Below, in pieces: positions 4,746 through 61,433 of a stretch of DNA of 64,000 nucleotides; the first letter of the stretch is position 1; the number at the start of each line of letters is the position of its first letter. The stretch is from contig NZ_CP019436.1 in the NCBI RefSeq assembly GCF_002201895.1, positions 447,456-511,455 on the forward strand, given 5' to 3'. The position numbers were made by a program, and so were the translations under genes. This stretch comes from Methanopyrus sp. SNP6 (GTDB lineage Archaea; JAADCQ01; Methanopyri; Methanopyrales; Methanopyraceae). Below the pieces are notes generated by a model, which searched no databases, had not been told where the DNA came from, and saw only the letters and a list, made by a program, of their open reading frames with translations.

Positions 4746-5477
4746 ATGGGGAGGGTCCGCGCTACTGACCCGCTTTTCCTCGGGGGACCAGGGTTGATCC
4801 CAAGGATCATGGTGGGGACCTCCCCGTTCCTAGGAGCTGGTCAGTTCGGGCATCGGGCCTTCCTATACCGACGCACCTTCTACCATTGCCCTGAAAACAT
4901 CGTCACACTGCTAGAGTACTGCGCCGAAGAGCTCGGAGTTACGGGTGTCCAAGCCCTAGCGGATCCAGTCATTATCGAGGCGCTGAGGGACGTGGATCCA
5001 GATCTGGACGTCGTGGCGGTAGTGGGACTGAGGAACTTGGAGGAGGAGCTCGAGATGCTGGAAGACCTGAACCTTCGTGCGGTGCTCCTTCACGCTAGCT
5101 GTGTCGATGGTGAGGACGTCGGAGAAGTGTCTGCCAAGCTGAATGAAATCAGAGACCGATTAGATGTTCCGGTCGGGATCGCAACGCACCGACCGGATGA
5201 GACGCTCCCTAGGTGGGAAGACAGAAAAACGGCAGACGTGTACATGGTTCCTATGAACCCAGTTGGGGCGTTCATGGGTGACCAGAAAGTCGTCGAAGAG
5301 CTCTTGGCCGAAACTGATCGAACTGTGATAGCGAAGAAAGTATTGGCGGCGGGGTCATTACCGCCGGAGGAAGGACTACCGTACGCAGCGCGTTACGCGG
5401 ACGCCGTGGCTGTGGGAATCGCGGGGAAGGAGGAAGCGGAGGAGACTCTAAGGACCGCTAAGAGGTACTTCGAGTGA
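4746..5477 (+). CDS. conserved archaeal TIM-barrel-like protein
   Basis: The 243-residue product alternates strands and helices like a TIM barrel, with short glycine- and asparagine-containing loops at strand ends (for example V-G-T-S-P-F near residue 23 and V-P-M-N-P near 174). A clear catalytic signature is not visible, so no reaction is assigned. A later ATG at 4809 would begin at the V-G-T-S-P-F strand; I kept the first ATG because the strand would otherwise lack its lead-in residues. It stands alone, divergent from tmcA and convergent with selB. Confidence 0.75.
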   Translation: MGRVRATDPLFLGGPGLIPRIMVGTSPFLGAGQFGHRAFLYRRTFYHCPENIVTLLEYCAEELGVTGVQALADPVIIEALRDVDPDLDVVAVVGLRNLEEELEMLEDLNLRAVLLHASCVDGEDVGEVSAKLNEIRDRLDVPVGIATHRPDETLPRWEDRKTADVYMVPMNPVGAFMGDQKVVEELLAETDRTVIAKKVLAAGSLPPEEGLPYAARYADAVAVGIAGKEEAEETLRTAKRYFE

Positions 5478-5560: not shown

Positions 5561-6940
5561 TTAGAGAACTATTTTGACGTTCCGAACCCGCTCCAGAACG
5601 ACCCGCTCTCCCGTCTTAACCTCTCCCTCGAAGTCTACGAGTACGGCCCCACGCGTACCGTGAGTATCAACGATTTTCCCTTCGACTCCTCCTTCCGTAC
5701 TGACTTTCTCGCCCACTAGGCGCTCGGCGTGCTCCTTGTTTAGAGCTAATCCATCGACGACAGCTAAACCCTTCCCCATATGGTCAGCCCTAGTAACGCG
5801 CCCACGTCGTCTGGAGACGCGCTTGAATGTCTCGCGCTTCGAGGTACCTTCCACGAGCCCGGAACCCGCTATACGGAGCGTTGTCGGCGGTAAGTCCAAC
5901 TTAACGAGGATCGTCCTGTCTCCCTCTTTAACGGCAACGGGCTCGTTGAGCTTCGCATACAGGTAACTCGATTCGCCGGGTCGTAGGGAGTCTAGGAGGA
6001 ACCCATCGTCGTGAGGCACGACCCGGGCCGGTACGGACCTCATTCCGACGTGTATGTGCAGCATCGTCTTCTGCCCGATAGATTGAGAGAACAAAGGATC
6101 CATTTCCACCTTCAAGTCGAGGTATCTAGTGACCCGCAGGGAACCCTGCTCGGCTAGTTGGAAGCCACGTTCGATCTCTTCCTCTCGGACCCCTCGTAGT
6201 GCTATTCCGACCCGATCACCCGCACGCGCTTCCTGCTTGTCCCTCCCGAAACTCTGGATGGACTTTACTTCAACGGTCTTACCGATCGGGTACAGTGTCA
6301 GTTCATCCCCGACTTCGACGCGCCCGGTTAGTACGGTACCGGTTACCACGGTCCCAGCGCCTTTGACGTGGAACGCGTGGTCTATCGGCATTCTAAACGG
6401 GGAATCCAGATCACGATCTGGAGGCTCCAGCACCTCGAGCAACGCGTCTTTCAGGTTCTCGATGCCCTCACCTGTCTTCGCGGAGACTGGTATTATTGGG
6501 GCATCTTCTAGGGCGGTTCCCTGAAGTACTCGTTTGATTTCCTCTATCCGACGCTCGACAGTCTTTTCGTCCACCAAATCCACCTTATTAAGGGCGACGA
6601 CCCCGCGGTCGATACCCAGGTGGTTAAGTACCACCAAGTGTTCCCCGGTCTGTACCTGAGGACCCTCATCGGCCGCTACAACCAGGATCGCGGCATCTAT
6701 TATTTCGGCCCCGGCCACCACGGTTCTGATGAGATCGGCGTGGCCCGGGGCGTCTACCAGTGTGACGGTGTAATCACCGAGCTCGAAGCTGGAGAACCCC
6801 AGGTCTATCGTGATACCACGCTCCTTCTCCTCCGGGTGTTTATCCAACGCCGCCGTGGAAGGCTTCTCGGTCAGCTGCGCTGCGAGTGCCGTCTTGCCGT
6901 GGTCGATGTGCCCGAACAGTCCAACATGTACTATAGGCAC
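5561..6940 (-). CDS. selB: selenocysteine-specific elongation factor SelB
   Basis: SelB is the EF-Tu-like GTPase that delivers Sec-tRNA to the ribosome at UGA codons marked by a SECIS element. The G1 loop reads G-H-I-D-H-G-K-T at residues 10-17, followed by D-A-P-G-H (G3) and N-K-V-D (G4), then EF-Tu domains 2 and 3 and a C-terminal domain IV beta-barrel. At 459 residues it matches archaeal SelB, which lacks the winged-helix SECIS-binding tail of the bacterial protein. The H-I-D-H-G P-loop and the length argue against EF-1A or eIF2-gamma. tRNA-Sec (46365-46453) and a selenoprotein gene (30796-30924) in the same window support the call. Confidence 0.93.
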   Translation of the reverse strand: MPIVHVGLFGHIDHGKTALAAQLTEKPSTAALDKHPEEKERGITIDLGFSSFELGDYTVTLVDAPGHADLIRTVVAGAEIIDAAILVVAADEGPQVQTGEHLVVLNHLGIDRGVVALNKVDLVDEKTVERRIEEIKRVLQGTALEDAPIIPVSAKTGEGIENLKDALLEVLEPPDRDLDSPFRMPIDHAFHVKGAGTVVTGTVLTGRVEVGDELTLYPIGKTVEVKSIQSFGRDKQEARAGDRVGIALRGVREEEIERGFQLAEQGSLRVTRYLDLKVEMDPLFSQSIGQKTMLHIHVGMRSVPARVVPHDDGFLLDSLRPGESSYLYAKLNEPVAVKEGDRTILVKLDLPPTTLRIAGSGLVEGTSKRETFKRVSRRRGRVTRADHMGKGLAVVDGLALNKEHAERLVGEKVSTEGGVEGKIVDTHGTRGAVLVDFEGEVKTGERVVLERVRNVKIVL

Positions 6941-17843: not shown

Positions 17844-18956
17844 TTATGTCTCCGGCAGTATCCAAACCCCTCCTTTGACACTCGATGCTATTAACACCTT
17901 AGGTTGAGCCGCATCTTTCGGTATTTCAACGATTACAAGTAAGTTCTCCCAGCTCCGGATACCCTCCCTCCTCTCGATGCTCATTAACTGACGGATGAAA
18001 CCTCCTCCTCGGCGTGCCTTTTCCACGGCCATGGCCTTTACTAGGTCGCGAAGGTCCACGAGAGCTACAGGGGACAGGTGTGGTGACGTGACGGTTGTTT
18101 CGAGCCCAGGATAATTTTTAAGCTTGTAGGAAACGTTTGTCCTACCGGCTACGGCGTACGCTCTTCCGGTAACAAGACCCGCTGGGAATATCACTTTTCT
18201 GAGGGCTAAATCCGAACTGCCAGTGCGGTACAACGTCTCCAACGCGGACGCCGATACTAGATCGATTTTGAAATTATCCGGTAACCCACCTTTAATTAGC
18301 ATGATGTACCTTACCACAGCTCCACTTATTTGGTTTGGTCCCTTATACGCCTCCTTACTTTTAACTTTAGCGATCTTCTTAATGGCCCAGTTCGTGATAG
18401 AAAGAGTTACCCTATCACCCACCCTTATAGGGCCTGTCTTATTTGGATCTGCCCAAATCGCTATTAACACTGTTTCGGGCCGTTTCACTTGAACTTTCAT
18501 CAGTTGGTCGACACCCATCGTCTTTATTTTGTTCAATGCATCCTTAACGGTAAGCAATTGAGGACCCTGAGGCGTAACTAATTCCACCCTTCCATTCTTT
18601 TGATTAGCCTTAATCTGATTAGCTAAATATCTCCTCCACTCTACCGTTGCAGCACCCACTACATCAATTGCTTGTAACTGCTCTGGAGTCTCTGCTGAAA
18701 GTATCTGCTGCTGCAATTTAGTCCGTGTTGGTGAAGATGCAAGTGGTCCTGTGAAATATGTGTTCAACTCTTTCAACTTTTGAGCACGAAGTTTTTCCAA
18801 CTGCTCTACATATGGTTTATATACGAAAAAGTAGTACGCTCCACCACCGGCGGCCAGGAAAACCAATCCTATGACGATGGCTCCGATCACGGCGTGGCGT
18901 CTCTCTTCCGGAATCTCTAAGAAGTTCGTAGGCTTCACCGGCGGCCGCGGAAGCAC
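17844..18956 (-). CDS. membrane-anchored protein, DUF515-like
   Basis: The 370-residue protein has a cytoplasmic N-terminus of about 25 residues, one transmembrane helix (about 26-50), a charged coiled-coil-prone segment and a large extracytoplasmic region with beta-rich blocks near 150-370. It resembles DUF515, a methanogen family of unknown function; the G-D-R-V-T-L segment recalls SAF-type domains of pilus assembly proteins, which is only a hint. The stretch from about 18120 to 18800 is noticeably AT-richer than its neighbours. It starts with GTG at 18956, 4 bases after the archaetidylserine synthase stop and 21 bases before the sortase substrate gene. Confidence 0.6.
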   Translation of the reverse strand: MLPRPPVKPTNFLEIPEERRHAVIGAIVIGLVFLAAGGGAYYFFVYKPYVEQLEKLRAQKLKELNTYFTGPLASSPTRTKLQQQILSAETPEQLQAIDVVGAATVEWRRYLANQIKANQKNGRVELVTPQGPQLLTVKDALNKIKTMGVDQLMKVQVKRPETVLIAIWADPNKTGPIRVGDRVTLSITNWAIKKIAKVKSKEAYKGPNQISGAVVRYIMLIKGGLPDNFKIDLVSASALETLYRTGSSDLALRKVIFPAGLVTGRAYAVAGRTNVSYKLKNYPGLETTVTSPHLSPVALVDLRDLVKAMAVEKARRGGGFIRQLMSIERREGIRSWENLLVIVEIPKDAAQPKVLIASSVKGGVWILPET

Positions 18957-18960
18957 TCTC

Positions 18961-19665
18961 TCACCCCCTCATTATGTACCACGAAAGTAGCACCGTCACC
19001 GTGACCGAGGTGACAACTTCCAGCCCCCGTTTTATTTCATCCGGTGGAATCAAGGGCGAGAACAAGAGCACGAGGAACGAGAGACCCCCCACGGCCAAGA
19101 TCGCCGGATGGGGACGCTTGAGGCTCTGGAACTTGACCGACGAAATCATCAGTGGAGTCGAAGTACCCAGTATAATGGTGTTGAGGATGTACCACAGGTA
19201 TGACGGACCCAGGTCGACGGTTAGGAAATAGAGGCAGCTCGTAATCGTTCCAACCCACGGGACTGGAAGGCCGAGGTAGTACTCATTAGGGTCGTACCCG
19301 TCGACGCACATCGCGTTGAACCTGGCGAGTCGGAGGGCACCGCAGCAAACCATCAGGACAGCGAGCAAGTAACACACCGGAGACGGCACGAGGCCGGCGG
19401 TGACGACCAGCACGGCCGGTGCTACCGCGAACGAGACCAAGTCTGCCAACGAGTCCAAGTTCATCCCGAACTCGGACTCCTCTCCAATCCTCCTGGCTAC
19501 GAACCCGTCCAACGAGTCCGCGATGAAAGAGAGGATGATGAACCTGGCGGCCGCGCCCGGGAACCCCGAGATCGATGCCAAGAGCGAAAGCGTTCCGAAG
19601 ACCACGTTGGTCAGCGATATCACGCACGCGGGTGTGATAAGCTCCGAGATCTTCCAACGCTCCAC
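18961..19665 (-). CDS. pssA: archaetidylserine synthase (CDP-alcohol phosphatidyltransferase)
   Basis: This integral membrane enzyme of 234 residues has the CDP-alcohol phosphatidyltransferase signature D-G-x2-A-R-x8-G-x3-D-x3-D (starting D-G-F-V-A-R-R, ending D-S-L-A-D, near residues 52-75) and about six or seven membrane helices. In archaea this type joins CDP-archaeol to L-serine, giving archaetidylserine. The neighbouring decarboxylase gene fixes serine as the likely alcohol rather than inositol or glycerol phosphate. GTG at 19665 follows a GAGGTGA site, and the gene lies 6 bases after the decarboxylase stop. Confidence 0.9.
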   Translation of the reverse strand: MERWKISELITPACVISLTNVVFGTLSLLASISGFPGAAARFIILSFIADSLDGFVARRIGEESEFGMNLDSLADLVSFAVAPAVLVVTAGLVPSPVCYLLAVLMVCCGALRLARFNAMCVDGYDPNEYYLGLPVPWVGTITSCLYFLTVDLGPSYLWYILNTIILGTSTPLMISSVKFQSLKRPHPAILAVGGLSFLVLLFSPLIPPDEIKRGLEVVTSVTVTVLLSWYIMRG

Positions 19666-30451: not shown

Positions 30452-30493
30452 TATCGAATCGTTTTGAGAACCATAACAATAGGGGGAGACTCT

Positions 30494-30763
30494 TTGGACG
30501 CGCTGCTGGAGATTTGCATACTGAATGCACTGGCAGTGGTGGCCTTCGCTGTACTCGCCTGGGCAGCTTTTAGGTACGCACTTTCCTCATGGCTTATCAT
30601 GGCGATTATCGTCACGGGGATTCTCGGGTCAGCATGCGTTGACTACGTCATGATCAGCGTCGGGGTGTACGATGGCCCGTGGGAAACAGCGTTCGCGAGC
30701 GTTGTGTACGCGGTGGGATGGTGGATAGGAAGACCCGGACCGTCCAGCCCGGGGTCCCGTTAG
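30494..30763 (+). CDS. small membrane protein of unknown function
   Basis: An 89-residue protein with two or three hydrophobic helices and a C-terminal G-R-P-G-P tail. TTG at 30494 follows AGGGGGAG by six bases, a strong site. Its last codons run antisense through the SECIS hairpin of the hydrogenase operon, so the two transcripts converge and overlap. I recognise no family. It could be a small component linked to neighbouring metal or energy genes, but nothing shows this. Confidence 0.55.
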   Translation: MDALLEICILNALAVVAFAVLAWAAFRYALSSWLIMAIIVTGILGSACVDYVMISVGVYDGPWETAFASVVYAVGWWIGRPGPSSPGSR

Positions 30764-30776
30764 GGTTCCCCCGGGC
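30747..30776 (-). promoter_or_regulatory. archaeal SECIS element of vhuU
   Basis: On the minus strand, 19 bases after the vhuU stop, a perfect hairpin forms: GCCCGGGG pairs with CCCCGGGC, interrupted by an asymmetric bulge GAA opposite A, then CCC pairs with GGG around the loop TAAC. This is the archaeal SECIS design (long GC stem, GAA/A internal bulge, 3-bp upper stem, small loop) and it lies in the 3' untranslated region, as archaeal SECIS elements do. It directs decoding of the UGA at 30862-30864 as selenocysteine. Confidence 0.93.
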
Positions 30777-30795
30777 CATCATCCGGCCGGGGCGT

Positions 30796-30924
30796 TCAAT
30801 CCTCACCCTTTCGCTCTATCCGGAACTTCACGCGATCCAGCACGTGGGCGGCGCACGACAGTCAAATGTCGTAGCTCCTGATCACCATTTCCAGGTAATT
30901 CAACACATCCCGCTTCTCGGCCAT
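30796..30924 (-). CDS. vhuU: selenocysteine-containing hydrogenase subunit VhuU
   Basis: This 42-residue gene is read through an in-frame TGA at 30862-30864 (codon 21). The product contains the series D-I-U-L-S-C-A-A-H, matching the hydrogenase large-subunit C-terminal motif D-P-C-x-x-C-x-x-H with selenocysteine as a Ni ligand and Ile for Pro. In Methanococcus the same piece is a separate subunit, VhuU, completing the NiFe site of the F420-non-reducing hydrogenase. ATG at 30924 lies 13 bases after the vhuA stop and follows GGGGGA. The SECIS hairpin lies just downstream. Standard gene finding misses it because TGA appears as a stop. Confidence 0.93.
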
Positions 30925-30937
30925 CGGACGGTTCCCC

Positions 30938-32242
30938 CTAAGCTAGTTCCACGATTTCATCTTCTAACTTTTTCGCGGTCTTCTTCAATGCGAGCTCGAT
31001 CGCAGGGACGTTGTGAGTGGTAGCGACTATCAGGTTGGCCTCCTTCACGCGACCCTCGTCGTCGGTCACGTAGTGATGGATGAGCGTACCACGTGGCGCC
31101 TCGACGATACCGACTCCTTCTCCTGCCTTAGGCTCGTAGTCCTCCTTACACTCGTCCTCATCGGTGATCACATCGTCTTCGAGAAGCATCTTGGCCTCCT
31201 CGCATGCTGCCACTAGTTCCACGAGCCGGGCCCAGTTGATGGTGAGAGAGTAGTTCACACACTCCCCGAACTCGCCGACGTATTCTTCGTAGAGCTCTTG
31301 GGCGCGCTCAGTCTTCATCCCCGAGCAGACGTTGAGTCGTGCACCCGGTCCTACCCTGTAAATGCCGTCGGGGTACCCGACGTCCTTTAGGTACGGGTGT
31401 TTGACGTAAGAGTACTCGATCGTGCGCTCCGCGATCACGTCCTGGTACTCCTCCGGTTCGAAGCGAGTGACTTCTTCCCCGTTCGGATCCACTACCCTCA
31501 CTTCGCCGTCGTAGAACTCGTGCTTGTCACCGTCTGAGACGAGACCCATGTGATAAGTCTCGATGTTCCCGAGAGTCTCGAGCAGATCGATGTCATGCTT
31601 CTCCCGGTACTCCTCCAGCGTCTCTTTGATCGCTTCGATGCCGACCTTGGCGCCCTCGTACGCCATCTCGATCATCTCTTCGGCACGACTGAGTAAGTCA
31701 TCACGTGACTCCGGATCTACTGGGGAGGAGACGCCGCCCGGAATCCCTGTTACGGGGTGTATGGCTTTACCTCCTGTAGCCTCCACGATATCCTGGCCGT
31801 AGCGACGCAGTTCGATTGCTATTTTCCCGACCTCCGGGTTGTCTTCGACGATTTTCACCACGTTACGCTGGAGCGGATCCGCGTCCGGTCCAACTACGTA
31901 GTCTGGTGCCGCCAGGAAGTAGAAGTGAAGCGCGTGACTGTGGATCATGTTCCCGATGTGCATCAGCCACCGAATCTTGTGCCCTCCTTCGGGTGGCTCG
32001 GCGTCGAAGCATGAGTCCACGGCCTTGCAGGCCGCTAAGTGGTGGGCTGTCTGGCAGATACCGCAGATCCTGGACACGATGTAGGGAACGTCCTCCGCGG
32101 GGCGGCCTTGGACGAACTTTTCGAACCCTCGGACTGCGAGGACAGCGAACTTAACATCTGCCACCTCGCCGTTCTCGACCTCGATGATAACTTCACCGTG
32201 CCCTTCTACCCTGGTCAGGGGATGAATCTTGATCTCGGCCAC
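30938..32242 (-). CDS. vhuA: F420-non-reducing hydrogenase large subunit VhuA
   Basis: The NiFe hydrogenase large subunit oxidises H2 and passes electrons via VhuG and VhuD to heterodisulfide reductase. The N-terminal Ni motif R-I-C-G-I-C-Q-T-A-H sits near residues 57-66, after R-V-E-G-H-G. The protein ends at residue 434 with the helix before the usual C-terminal D-P-C-x-x-C-x-x-H, which is absent; it is supplied by the separate vhuU gene 13 bases downstream. This split also removes the need for C-terminal maturation cleavage of VhuA. It starts with ATG at 32242, 3 bases after vhuG. Confidence 0.94.
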   Translation of the reverse strand: MAEIKIHPLTRVEGHGEVIIEVENGEVADVKFAVLAVRGFEKFVQGRPAEDVPYIVSRICGICQTAHHLAACKAVDSCFDAEPPEGGHKIRWLMHIGNMIHSHALHFYFLAAPDYVVGPDADPLQRNVVKIVEDNPEVGKIAIELRRYGQDIVEATGGKAIHPVTGIPGGVSSPVDPESRDDLLSRAEEMIEMAYEGAKVGIEAIKETLEEYREKHDIDLLETLGNIETYHMGLVSDGDKHEFYDGEVRVVDPNGEEVTRFEPEEYQDVIAERTIEYSYVKHPYLKDVGYPDGIYRVGPGARLNVCSGMKTERAQELYEEYVGEFGECVNYSLTINWARLVELVAACEEAKMLLEDDVITDEDECKEDYEPKAGEGVGIVEAPRGTLIHHYVTDDEGRVKEANLIVATTHNVPAIELALKKTAKKLEDEIVELA

Positions 32243-32245
32243 CAG

Positions 32246-33163
32246 TTACTCCCCCTTCGAACCGAAGATCACGTCACGATGACCCTTCAGTAGAGACGCA
32301 GCCATGGAGAACATGTAGAGCTTCCCGGGTAGGTCGACGAGTCCCTTCAAAATCTCCTCGACGTCGACGCCGGTCTCGAAAGACACCGAAGCGATCGCAT
32401 CGAGGGACGCCGCACCCTGATCCAGTGCCTGCTTCGTCGGTCCGTTACACCCACGGCACGGTAGTCCTCGGGACGGACAGGCCGCTTCACATCCGGCGAC
32501 CGTGGCCGGTCCCATACACGGATAGCCCTGTTCGAGCAGGCACTTGTCCGGGTCGGGTCGGCCCTGACCGGTGCGGAACTTGATATCCTCGATCGGGATG
32601 TCCTCCTTCTCGCGGGGACATTCCTCGCACAGGTTCGTCGTCGGGAGTTTGGGCTGCCGGTCCTCGATGATGGCGGTGATGACTTCGGCAATGCTCTCCG
32701 GCTTGGGAGGGCAGCCCGGCAGCATGTAGTCGACGTCGATTACCTCGGGCAGCGGACGCACGTAGTCGAAGATCTCCGGAACGACCTCCTCCGGAGTCTC
32801 GCCTTCGTCGTCGGTGGTCGGGGTCTCCTTGAAAACCCACTCGAGGACGTCGTCTATGTGGTACAGGTTGGCCAACCCGTGGACTCCACCGTAGCAGGCA
32901 CATGTCCCCACGGCGACGACGATGTTAGCGGCCTCACGGAGTTCTTCCGCGACCTCGAGATCCTCCTCGTTCCGGATGCTTCCCTCGATCACCGCCACGT
33001 CCACGTGCTCCGGAATCTCCTTCTGGTCTACTAGTACGTAGCAGTAATCGATCTCGATGGCATCCTCTAGGAGATCGAGTAACCTCTCGTGGAGGTCGAG
33101 CAGTGACACGTGACACCCGACGCAGGAGGAGAGTTGAGCCGTCGCGATCGTCGCCTTGCTCAT
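32246..33163 (-). CDS. vhuG: F420-non-reducing hydrogenase small subunit VhuG
   Basis: The small subunit carries the iron-sulfur clusters that take electrons from the NiFe site. It has C-V-G-C at residues 14-17, G-T-C-A-C-Y-G-G and P-G-C-P-P-K-P-E for the proximal cluster, and a Cys-rich C-terminal part with C-P-R-E, C-M-G-P and C-R-G-C for the further clusters. The 305-residue size fits. It leads the operon vhuG-vhuA-vhuU; the VhuD subunit that links to heterodisulfide reductase is not in this window. The promoter is likely the AT-rich element at 33194-33202. Confidence 0.94.
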   Translation of the reverse strand: MSKATIATAQLSSCVGCHVSLLDLHERLLDLLEDAIEIDYCYVLVDQKEIPEHVDVAVIEGSIRNEEDLEVAEELREAANIVVAVGTCACYGGVHGLANLYHIDDVLEWVFKETPTTDDEGETPEEVVPEIFDYVRPLPEVIDVDYMLPGCPPKPESIAEVITAIIEDRQPKLPTTNLCEECPREKEDIPIEDIKFRTGQGRPDPDKCLLEQGYPCMGPATVAGCEAACPSRGLPCRGCNGPTKQALDQGAASLDAIASVSFETGVDVEEILKGLVDLPGKLYMFSMAASLLKGHRDVIFGSKGE

Positions 33164-33260: not shown

Positions 33261-33860
33261 ATAGCACATATCCACATACCTGATGGGCTGATACCGTTGT
33301 GGTGGTGCGCCGTATTTTACGCTATGGCGGCCATACCGGTAGGTTTAGGGGCGCTGAGAACTCGATCCGAGGGCCGTAAAACCATTCTAGTCGGACTGCT
33401 GGCGAGTTTGTCGTTCGTGTTCATGCAAGTGCCGATAGGTCACGCTCATGTGAACTTAACTGGACTAATCGGAATTCTGCTGGGGCCTTGGAGTTCCGCC
33501 GTGGCCGTTTTCATTGTCAACTTAGCGTGTGCCCTAATGGGACACGGAGGAATAACCATTGTCGGGCTGAACACCCTAATCAACTGGGGAGAAGCGGCCG
33601 GCGTGTGGGCGTTTTACAGGCTTCTCAGGAAGAGACTGAACTACGGTGACGCCGCGGGGATTGCCACGTTCTCCGTCCTAGCCACATCGTCGGTGATTCC
33701 ATCGTTTGTCATAGCTTGGGTCACTGATAAACCCGTACTTCCGTTCATCCTCACACTGACTACGGCTTGGATAGTTACGGCGGTTATCGAAGCCGTAATT
33801 ACGGCATCGGTAGTTAAGACTCTCGCACAAATGAAACCGGACTGGGTGAGAGATTTGTGA
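33261..33860 (+). CDS. cbiM: cobalt/nickel ECF transporter substrate-binding subunit CbiM, unusual start
   Basis: CbiM is the membrane S-component that binds Co2+ or Ni2+ through its N-terminal histidines. The frame reads H-I-H-I-P-D-G-L-I-P-L-W at its start, the family's metal-binding N-terminus, followed by about six membrane helices. No ATG, GTG or TTG lies upstream of that motif within the open frame (which opens at 33201). An ATA at 33261 lies six bases after GGGGGGT and gives a protein of about 199 residues; an ATC at 33270 is another option. The canonical TTG at 33297 would remove the metal motif. The partner genes cbiQ and cbiO follow. Confidence 0.85.
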   Translation: MAHIHIPDGLIPLWWCAVFYAMAAIPVGLGALRTRSEGRKTILVGLLASLSFVFMQVPIGHAHVNLTGLIGILLGPWSSAVAVFIVNLACALMGHGGITIVGLNTLINWGEAAGVWAFYRLLRKRLNYGDAAGIATFSVLATSSVIPSFVIAWVTDKPVLPFILTLTTAWIVTAVIEAVITASVVKTLAQMKPDWVRDL

Positions 33861-34549
33861 AGTTCACCGAAGCGTTGGAGTGGTCGCTGACGGCTGAGAC
33901 CGTGCTCCACCGTATACACCCATGGTCGAAGTTGGTCGGGCTAATGACGACGATTTTCGCCTCGATGTTATTGTACGATCCCTTGGGTATCGCCGTCCTC
34001 TCCGTGCCTTATCTGATCGGGTGCCTCCTAGCCCGAATTCCCGTCCGTATCCTGGCGCGGCTGTCGGTACCCTCGCTAGCGTTCCTAGGCGCCGTCCTAC
34101 TCTTAATGCTGCCCTCAGGCGTTCCCGGCCGTGAAGTGTTATTATACGCGGTTCGCGGTGCAACAGACTTGCTAGCCATACTTGTGACTACACTCACGAC
34201 ACCATTCAACGCGCTGTGGTCGGCTCTCGTTGTGGTGTTCCCACCCACACTGGCGGAAACAGGTCTCATCTTCCATCGCTCGGTGTACCGGGCGCTCGAA
34301 GAGTTAGAAGGCACGTTGAACGCGATCCGAATCCGAGGGTGGAGGCTCAAGTCTATCAACGTACTGGGGGCCGTTATCGCGACCCTCTTGATTCGAAGCC
34401 ACCAGAGCGCAGAACTCGTGCAGGTGAGCGTAGAGGTACGCGGAGCGAAGGGCAGGGTGCGACCGTTGAAAAAATTCGAGTTCATGCGGGTAGACTTCGG
34501 ATGGTTAGCCATGGTGTTTTGCTCCGTGGTACTATCGGGGGTGATCTGA
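33857..34549 (+). CDS. cbiQ: ECF transporter transmembrane subunit CbiQ
   Basis: The 230-residue T-component couples the CbiO ATPase to CbiM. It has five or so membrane helices, an early H-P-W-S-K-L motif and the two cytoplasmic coupling motifs typical of the family (A-I-R-I-R-G and a later A-L/V-E-V-R-G-A). GTG at 33857 overlaps the cbiM stop in a GTGA-like junction, so translation is coupled. The unusual C-terminus is short. Confidence 0.9.
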   Translation: MKFTEALEWSLTAETVLHRIHPWSKLVGLMTTIFASMLLYDPLGIAVLSVPYLIGCLLARIPVRILARLSVPSLAFLGAVLLLMLPSGVPGREVLLYAVRGATDLLAILVTTLTTPFNALWSALVVVFPPTLAETGLIFHRSVYRALEELEGTLNAIRIRGWRLKSINVLGAVIATLLIRSHQSAELVQVSVEVRGAKGRVRPLKKFEFMRVDFGWLAMVFCSVVLSGVI

Positions 34550-34550
34550 G

Positions 34551-35384
34551 ATCGGATATGCCGTTAAGATCAAATGCTTAACTCACGAGTATCCCGACGG
34601 CACTTGTGGTGTGTGCGGGTTGAGTTTACGAGTGAAAGAAGGTGAATCCGTGGTTGTACTCGGACCGAACGGTTCCGGGAAGACGACTTTACTGCACCAT
34701 ATTCTCGGTTTATTAACTCCCACCGAGGGACACATCCGGGTCCTAGGTCACGACCTGCCTGACGGGGTACGGGAAGTTCGAAAACGTATAGGAGTGGTCT
34801 TCCAGGACGTCGACGACCAGCTCATCATGCCGACAGTGCTAGAAGACGTAGCCTTCGGGCTAGTAAACCGCGGCATGTCGCGCGAAGAAGCGTTCGAGCG
34901 AGCCCGTGAGATCCTGGAACGGTTAGGCATTGAAGATCTGGAGGATCGGCCGCCGCAGTTCCTCAGCGGCGGACAGAAAAGGTTGGTAGCTTTGGCGGGA
35001 GCCGTAGCTCCGGAGCCTGACCTCCTGATTCTCGACGAACCCACCTCAGGACTCGACTTCCGCGCCACCAGACTATTCGTGCGACTCATCAAAGAGCTCA
35101 AGGAGGAGCTGGGGTTCACGATGATACTGACGACATTCGATGTAGACATCGCGGTGGCGTTGGCGGAGCGCGTCGTGATGATCCGAGAGGGGAAGACCGT
35201 AGCCGAAGGGTCTCCAGAAGATCTCCTCACGGACGTCGACCTGATAAAGGAATCCGGACTGAAACCACCAGAGCACGTGGAACTGCTCCGAAAGCTAGGG
35301 ATCGAGGATCCGCCGCTCGACATAAGCGAGGCGGAGGAGCTCCTAGTGACCATGCTGGGGGAGAAGAGCCGTGGAAATCCGTAA
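34551..35384 (+). CDS. cbiO: ECF transporter ATP-binding subunit CbiO, unusual start, altered H-loop
   Basis: The ABC ATPase powering metal uptake: Walker A G-P-N-G-S-G-K-T-T, signature L-S-G-G-Q-K-R, Walker B L-L-I-L-D-E-P. The H-loop reads T-T-F-D-V-D where T-H-D is usual, so the switch His is Phe. Homology begins at a typical N-terminus (K-I-K-C-L-T-H-E-Y-P-D-G-T) about 16 codons before the first canonical start, GTG 34611. Upstream, only ATC (34551, seven bases after GGGGGTG) or GTT (34563) is available; an ATG at 34558 is in another frame and ends after seven codons. A non-standard start or a frameshift is implied. Confidence 0.82.
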   Translation: MGYAVKIKCLTHEYPDGTCGVCGLSLRVKEGESVVVLGPNGSGKTTLLHHILGLLTPTEGHIRVLGHDLPDGVREVRKRIGVVFQDVDDQLIMPTVLEDVAFGLVNRGMSREEAFERAREILERLGIEDLEDRPPQFLSGGQKRLVALAGAVAPEPDLLILDEPTSGLDFRATRLFVRLIKELKEELGFTMILTTFDVDIAVALAERVVMIREGKTVAEGSPEDLLTDVDLIKESGLKPPEHVELLRKLGIEDPPLDISEAEELLVTMLGEKSRGNP

Positions 35385-46364: not shown

Positions 46365-46453
46365 GGCCGCCGCCACCGGGGTGGTCCCCGGGCCGGACTT
46401 CAGATCCGGCGCGCCCCGAGCGGGGCGCGGGGTTCAATTCCCCGCGGCGGCCG
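46365..46453 (+). tRNA. tRNA-Sec (selenocysteine, anticodon TCA)
   Basis: The fold is the archaeal 9+4 type: acceptor GGCCGCCGC/GCGGCGGCC (9 bp), long D-stem CCGGGG/CCCCGG with loop TGGT, anticodon stem CCGGA/TCCGG with loop CTTCAGA, so the anticodon is TCA, a long variable arm GCGCCCC/GGGGCGC with loop GAGC, and a 4-bp T-stem GGGG/CCCC with loop TTCAATT. The discriminator is G; no CCA is encoded. It is charged with Ser, phosphorylated by PSTK and converted to Sec by SepSecS, then delivered by SelB. Confidence 0.97.
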
Positions 46454-61363: not shown

Positions 61364-61433
61364 CGTGGATCCCCCGATGACGAGTGAGCTGTTAGCCGAA
61401 CACTATTATGGGGAGAGGATGGCTGGCTGAGGG

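Follow-up and report, generated by a model that had tools for sequence, protein, structure and literature searches.

The vhuG-vhuA-vhuU locus of Methanopyrus sp. SNP6: a split hydrogenase with a selenocysteine subunit and its archaeal SECIS element

The window analysed here, by which we mean the whole stretch of 64,000 nucleotides, covers bases 447456-511455 of the single-contig genome of Methanopyrus sp. SNP6 (1,421,521 bases). It contains a compact group of hydrogenase genes on the minus strand, in which the last gene is only 42 codons long and carries an in-frame TGA. The features of this group are as follows.

32246-33163, minus strand: vhuG, hydrogenase small subunit (open reading frame; Pfam Oxidored_q6, 2e-35; best NCBIfam match VhuG, NF045875)
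30938-32242, minus strand: vhuA, NiFe large subunit without the C-terminal nickel-binding motif (open reading frame; NCBIfam NF041785; tree)
30796-30924, minus strand: vhuU, 42 codons plus a TGA stop, supplying D-I-U-L-S-C-A-A-H (open reading frame; NCBIfam NF041786)
30862-30864, minus strand: in-frame TGA read as selenocysteine (Sec) (kept as TGA in all five Methanopyrus-type genomes)
30796-30798, minus strand: TGA terminator of vhuU (of the five genomes, three have TGA and two TAA)
30738-30788, minus strand: archaeal SECIS element in the vhuU 3' untranslated region (Rfam RF01737; covariation; covariance model)

The vhuA frame runs on the minus strand from a GTG at 32242 to a TAG at 30938-30940, and its product ends in ...KKLEDEIVELA with no DPCxxCxxH motif, in agreement with the preliminary description of this DNA, which had noticed that VhuA (30938-32242) stops short of its C-terminal nickel motif. 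NCBIfam NF041785 is the top-scoring of all models for this protein (559 bits over profile positions 1-416 of 418, not reaching the cut-off of 800), and the vhuG product scores 322 bits against VhuG NF045875, below the cut-off of 450. Because both scores fall under the curated NCBIfam cut-offs, VhuA and VhuG are, as far as their sequences indicate, divergent members. The window VhuA is 97% identical to that of the Methanopyrus relative G001 and only 56% identical to that of the Methanococci genome G025. The divergent neighbour of vhuG is a metal-uptake ECF transporter of the CbiM-CbiQ-CbiO type (33297-35384, plus strand), for which nickel import rather than cobalt import may be proposed since it adjoins nickel enzyme genes.

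A spacer of 13 bases (30925-30937) lies between the vhuA stop and the ATG of vhuU (30922-30924), so that a UxxCxxH motif with a UGA codon sits directly downstream of a VhuA without that motif. The translation is MAEKRDVLNYLEMVIRSYDIULSCAAHVLDRVKFRIERKGED, with UGA as codon 21; the preliminary description had proposed this 42-codon frame, its 13-base distance, its TGA at 30862-30864 and the motif DIULSCAAH, and all its coordinates and counts hold. With the TGA read as Sec, VhuU passes the cut-off of the NCBIfam equivalog NF041786 (81.2 bits against 70) and spans the entire profile (1-45 of 45). A motif pattern search in the genome's own group took in five genomes, and the motif and its TGA are identical in all of them, while neighbouring codons differ synonymously (ATT/ATC/ATA, GCC/GCG). 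The roughly 15 residues past the conserved His are more variable among these five, as one would expect if they formed a propeptide removed by cleavage. The TGA motif has no second copy on either strand of the window, and none of 30 random windows with matching dinucleotide composition contained it. A small membrane-protein-like frame (about 30460-30763, plus strand) converges with vhuU, and its 3' end overlaps the SECIS on the opposite strand; the stretch 30485-30760 (plus strand) of this frame gave no Pfam match.

The SECIS core (30745-30778) consists of a 10-bp stem, a GAA/A bulge (30766-30768 opposite 30755), a CCC/GGG upper stem (30763-30765 paired with 30756-30758) and a UAAC loop; the hairpin's Watson-Crick pairing starts with G30776-C30747, 19 bases past the vhuU stop. 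The hairpin had been described earlier with this distance, bulge and upper stem; it proves to be larger than claimed, extending below the stem into AUGA (30779-30782) opposite GA (30743-30744) and then into an outer stem (30784-30788 with 30738-30742). This extension is already known, since AUGA_GA has been reported in the SECIS of all Methanopyrus "frhA" genes, a group there including VhuU (PMC11227280). Compared with the published euryarchaeal features, namely a GC stem, GAA opposite A, three C-G pairs and a small loop (PMC13188914), the element shows the stem, the GAA/A bulge, three S-S pairs and the apical loop, and lies in the untranslated region of a selenoprotein gene. Each of the five Methanopyrus-type genomes has it after vhuU. 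On neither strand of the window is there another strict SECIS-like hairpin, and the 30 dinucleotide-matched random windows contained none; among the Methanococci, the strict pattern passed over the element after several genes, and the scan gives no SECIS count there.

Covariation supports the structure as well. In an alignment of 12 Methanopyrus sequences, nine pairs are changed on both sides and 86.1% of cells are paired, against 57% or less when the partners are slid, these percentages being slightly low as the VhuD 3' half is one column off. A covariance search, which the preliminary description had suggested as a check, was run with a model trained only on the VhuU and FrhA elements. Exactly five matches with E below 1e-5 were found in this genome, each beside a selenoprotein gene: VhuU at the top with 74.6 bits, FrhA, and the held-out VhuD, SelD and FdhA. 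Two other matches in the genome are weak (E about 0.03). For FdhA (CARLUHAP) the SECIS lies in the 5' region, as is the case for fdhA of M. kandleri AV19 (PMC11881835).

The genome also encodes the machinery for decoding UGA as Sec, partly within the window and partly outside it, together with a further selenoprotein gene of the Vhu system and a maturation protease:

46365-46452, plus strand, window: tRNA-Sec gene (Rfam RF01852, 65.4 bits)
5561-6940, minus strand, window: selB, selenocysteine-specific elongation factor (open reading frame of 459 aa; TIGR00475, 325.7 bits, above cut-off, at 453490-454383 of the genome)
893243-894373 of the genome, outside the window: SepSecS
18120-18977 of the genome, outside the window: SelD with its own TGA (HGUACK)
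241809-242201 of the genome, outside the window: HycI-type maturation protease
854664-855032 of the genome, minus strand, outside the window: VhuD, whose frame holds two internal TGA (CCYEU, AGUKKEEC), ends at a TGA stop and has a SECIS of its own

Of the archaeal Sec-decoding trait, tRNA-Sec, SelB, SepSecS and SelD are all present in this genome, and vhuD lies far from vhuGAU. Another RNA match in the window resembles the C/D-box sRNA sR24 (61373-61432, plus strand, 38.5 bits).

Related genes also occur outside the genus. Around G025, a phylum-level group of 36 genomes was searched, and 35 of them carry the TGA motif, mostly twice. One gene, a short frame of its own (VhuU), reads DPUYSCAAH in 33 genomes, a count taken by hand from the motif-search listing, and the other ends a full-length subunit (FruA) with D-I/M-U-A-S-C-A-x-H in 35 genomes. 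In a midpoint-rooted tree of hydrogenase large subunits, the split VhuA proteins of Methanopyrus, that of the window among them, and those of Methanococci are separated by a single branch (SH-aLRT 98) from the fused Cys-type subunits of both groups; split and fused forms therefore appear to be old paralogues common to both lineages. Such a full-length Cys-type subunit, named beforehand as a possible refutation of the split Sec reading, does exist in this genome (560032-561276, ending in DPCLSCATH). Like its counterpart in Methanococcus, it is an isozyme, and its presence is compatible with the split Sec reading. Compared with the G001 copy, the mvhD of the same Cys-type cluster (genome positions 562251-562620; locus L027, about 5450-5460) contains an additional G that breaks its frame, either by sequencing error or by decay.

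The split arrangement has already been seen experimentally in a relative. In PDB 9SFI, chain g (418 aa) is VhuA-like (E 8e-145 to the window VhuA) and chain M is a separate 27-aa peptide, whose aligned part of 22 letters has X at the Sec position and which matches the beginning of VhuU as read in L069 (G049). Together with the NF041786 match and the covariation, this structure supports the earlier proposal of a split NiFe hydrogenase with VhuU as its Sec subunit.

Two readings would remove the selenoprotein altogether. The fused DPCLSCATH subunit makes it conceivable that vhuU is a pseudogene or a chance frame, inactivated by a nonsense mutation, with the Cys-type paralogue as the working enzyme. 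However, the same TGA persists in five genomes amid synonymous changes and an orthologous one in 33 Methanococci genomes, the SECIS is present in all five, the VhuU model NF041786 is passed, and in this genome the frame break lies in mvhD of the Cys cluster; we regard inactivation as having practically no probability. It could also be argued that the hairpin, being GC-rich, situated at a gene end and named flpD rather than SECIS by its top Rfam match (RF01737 at 30740-30786, minus strand, 53.1 bits, E 4.9e-10, gathering score of 40 bits passed), is mainly a transcription terminator or a separate "flpD RNA" motif. Yet between its GC clamps it carries the GAA/A kink-turn-like motif that M. maripaludis requires for Sec insertion, mutation having shown the two A of GAA to be indispensable there (PMC11881835), and the model matches at the known selenoprotein genes FrhA, VhuD and SelD and 5' of FdhA. 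RF01737 itself looks like a SECIS model under another name, built on flpD/vhuD genes, and the probability that the hairpin is no SECIS is very small. We rejected both readings on the grounds of the conserved TGA with its SECIS and of the SECIS model matches at selenoprotein genes.

A different question concerns the second TGA (30796-30798), which is the same codon on the same messenger as the SECIS and might also be read as Sec, with translation continuing through an open frame for about a dozen codons to a TAA in the SECIS loop region. Against this, two of the five genomes have TAA at that position, and 17 bases separate the codon from the SECIS core, compared with 83 for the Sec codon and a reported archaeal range of 80-1300 bases (PMC2933860), which leaves a second Sec quite unlikely. 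The use of UGA as Sec at 83 bases and as stop at 17 bases is in keeping with that spacing. Whether the second TGA is read through or stops, the tail should be cleaved off either way.

The vhuG-vhuA-vhuU genes thus almost certainly encode a split F420-non-reducing [NiFeSe] hydrogenase (Vhu), in which UGA is read as Sec by means of a 3' SECIS. The sequence, its conservation, the SECIS covariation, the machinery genes and the orthology are established directly. Beyond them we infer Sec insertion in vivo, tail cleavage, the electron partner and selenium switching, along the following lines. The bulk of the fold, with the N-terminal CxxC, would come from VhuA, and the C-terminal UxxCxxH, whose Sec and Cys would complete nickel binding, from VhuU. 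The SECIS would recruit SelB with Sec-tRNA-Sec, so that UGA codon 21 is read as Sec; the HycI-type protease would probably remove the variable tail past the conserved His after nickel insertion, and the mature VhuU would dock into VhuA. Electrons from H2 would then pass via VhuD to heterodisulfide reductase, as in Methanococcus. The steps of tail cleavage and electron transfer are modelled on Methanococcus and on [NiFe] hydrogenases in general. The fused Cys-type paralogue probably does the work under selenium shortage, by analogy with Methanococcus, whose Cys isoforms are induced when selenium is depleted (PMC11097638).

The residue before Sec deserves separate comment. In VhuU it is Ile in all five Methanopyrus-type genomes and Pro in 33 of 33 Methanococci, and the preliminary remark that Ile stands where Pro is usual holds for this subunit; as a general oddity it does not, since in FruA these organisms normally have Ile in front of Sec. 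In FruA/FrhA, Ile, or Met in three genomes, precedes Sec in 35 of 35 Methanococci and in five of five Methanopyrus genomes, whereas the Cys-type F420-reducing enzymes in eight of the same Methanococci genomes keep Pro. One hypothesis is that the change from Pro to Ile/Met before the nickel-bridging residue is an adaptation to selenocysteine, which only Methanopyrus extended to VhuU; we consider this possible but rather doubtful. A fused Mvh-type Cys large subunit from another archaeal lineage (L011, genome G011) has DICQACASH, that is, Ile before the nickel Cys, and because of it the link of Ile with Sec is only suggestive and not strict, the other counter-examples being Pro-Sec in the 33 Methanococci VhuU.

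The split VhuA/VhuU selenoenzyme with its RNA signal is real and already known. VhuU has its own NCBIfam model, and reviews list it in all Sec-using archaea, Methanopyrales included (PMC9312934), or in nearly all of them (PMC13188914), and it is for these reasons that we call it known; the earlier expectation that standard annotation would overlook the gene no longer holds as a general statement, as the NCBI model library contains VhuU. The present analysis confirms that a selenoprotein gene of 42 codons, and its RNA signal with it, can be picked out by reading raw sequence unaided. It also supplies a comparative set of five genomes for a split [NiFeSe] hydrogenase with Ile, not Pro, next to Sec, in three of which one messenger uses UGA as both Sec and stop. 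Both the Ile-for-Pro exchange and the dual UGA are small points, testable in the existing Methanococcus reporter system.

Among the closest known systems is VhuU of the same genus in G001, which has the same DIULSCAAH, the same spacing and a near-identical SECIS, and differs by a few substitutions. Vhu of the Methanococcales (NF041786, NF041785; 9SFI) likewise has a separate Sec subunit of about 45 aa right after VhuA, with UxxCAAH and a SECIS past the stop, and many of those genomes carry a fused Cys isozyme elsewhere. Methanopyrus differs from them in having Ile rather than Pro before Sec (5/5 against 0/33), in a VhuA below the curated cut-off, and in the separation of vhuGAU from vhuD, whereas the M. 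maripaludis operon reads hdrA-vhuDGAUB-fwu (PMC11097638). The Sec-type FruA/FrhA of the same organisms shares D-[I/M]-U-x-S-C-A-x-H and, in Methanopyrus, the GAA/A SECIS, but its large subunit is unsplit and belongs to an F420-reducing enzyme. The fused Cys-type VhcA/MvhA has the same fold and motif position in one polypeptide, with DPCLSCATH and no Sec, and the pairing of a split Sec form with a fused Cys form in Methanopyrus matches the Vhu/Vhc pair of Methanococcus.
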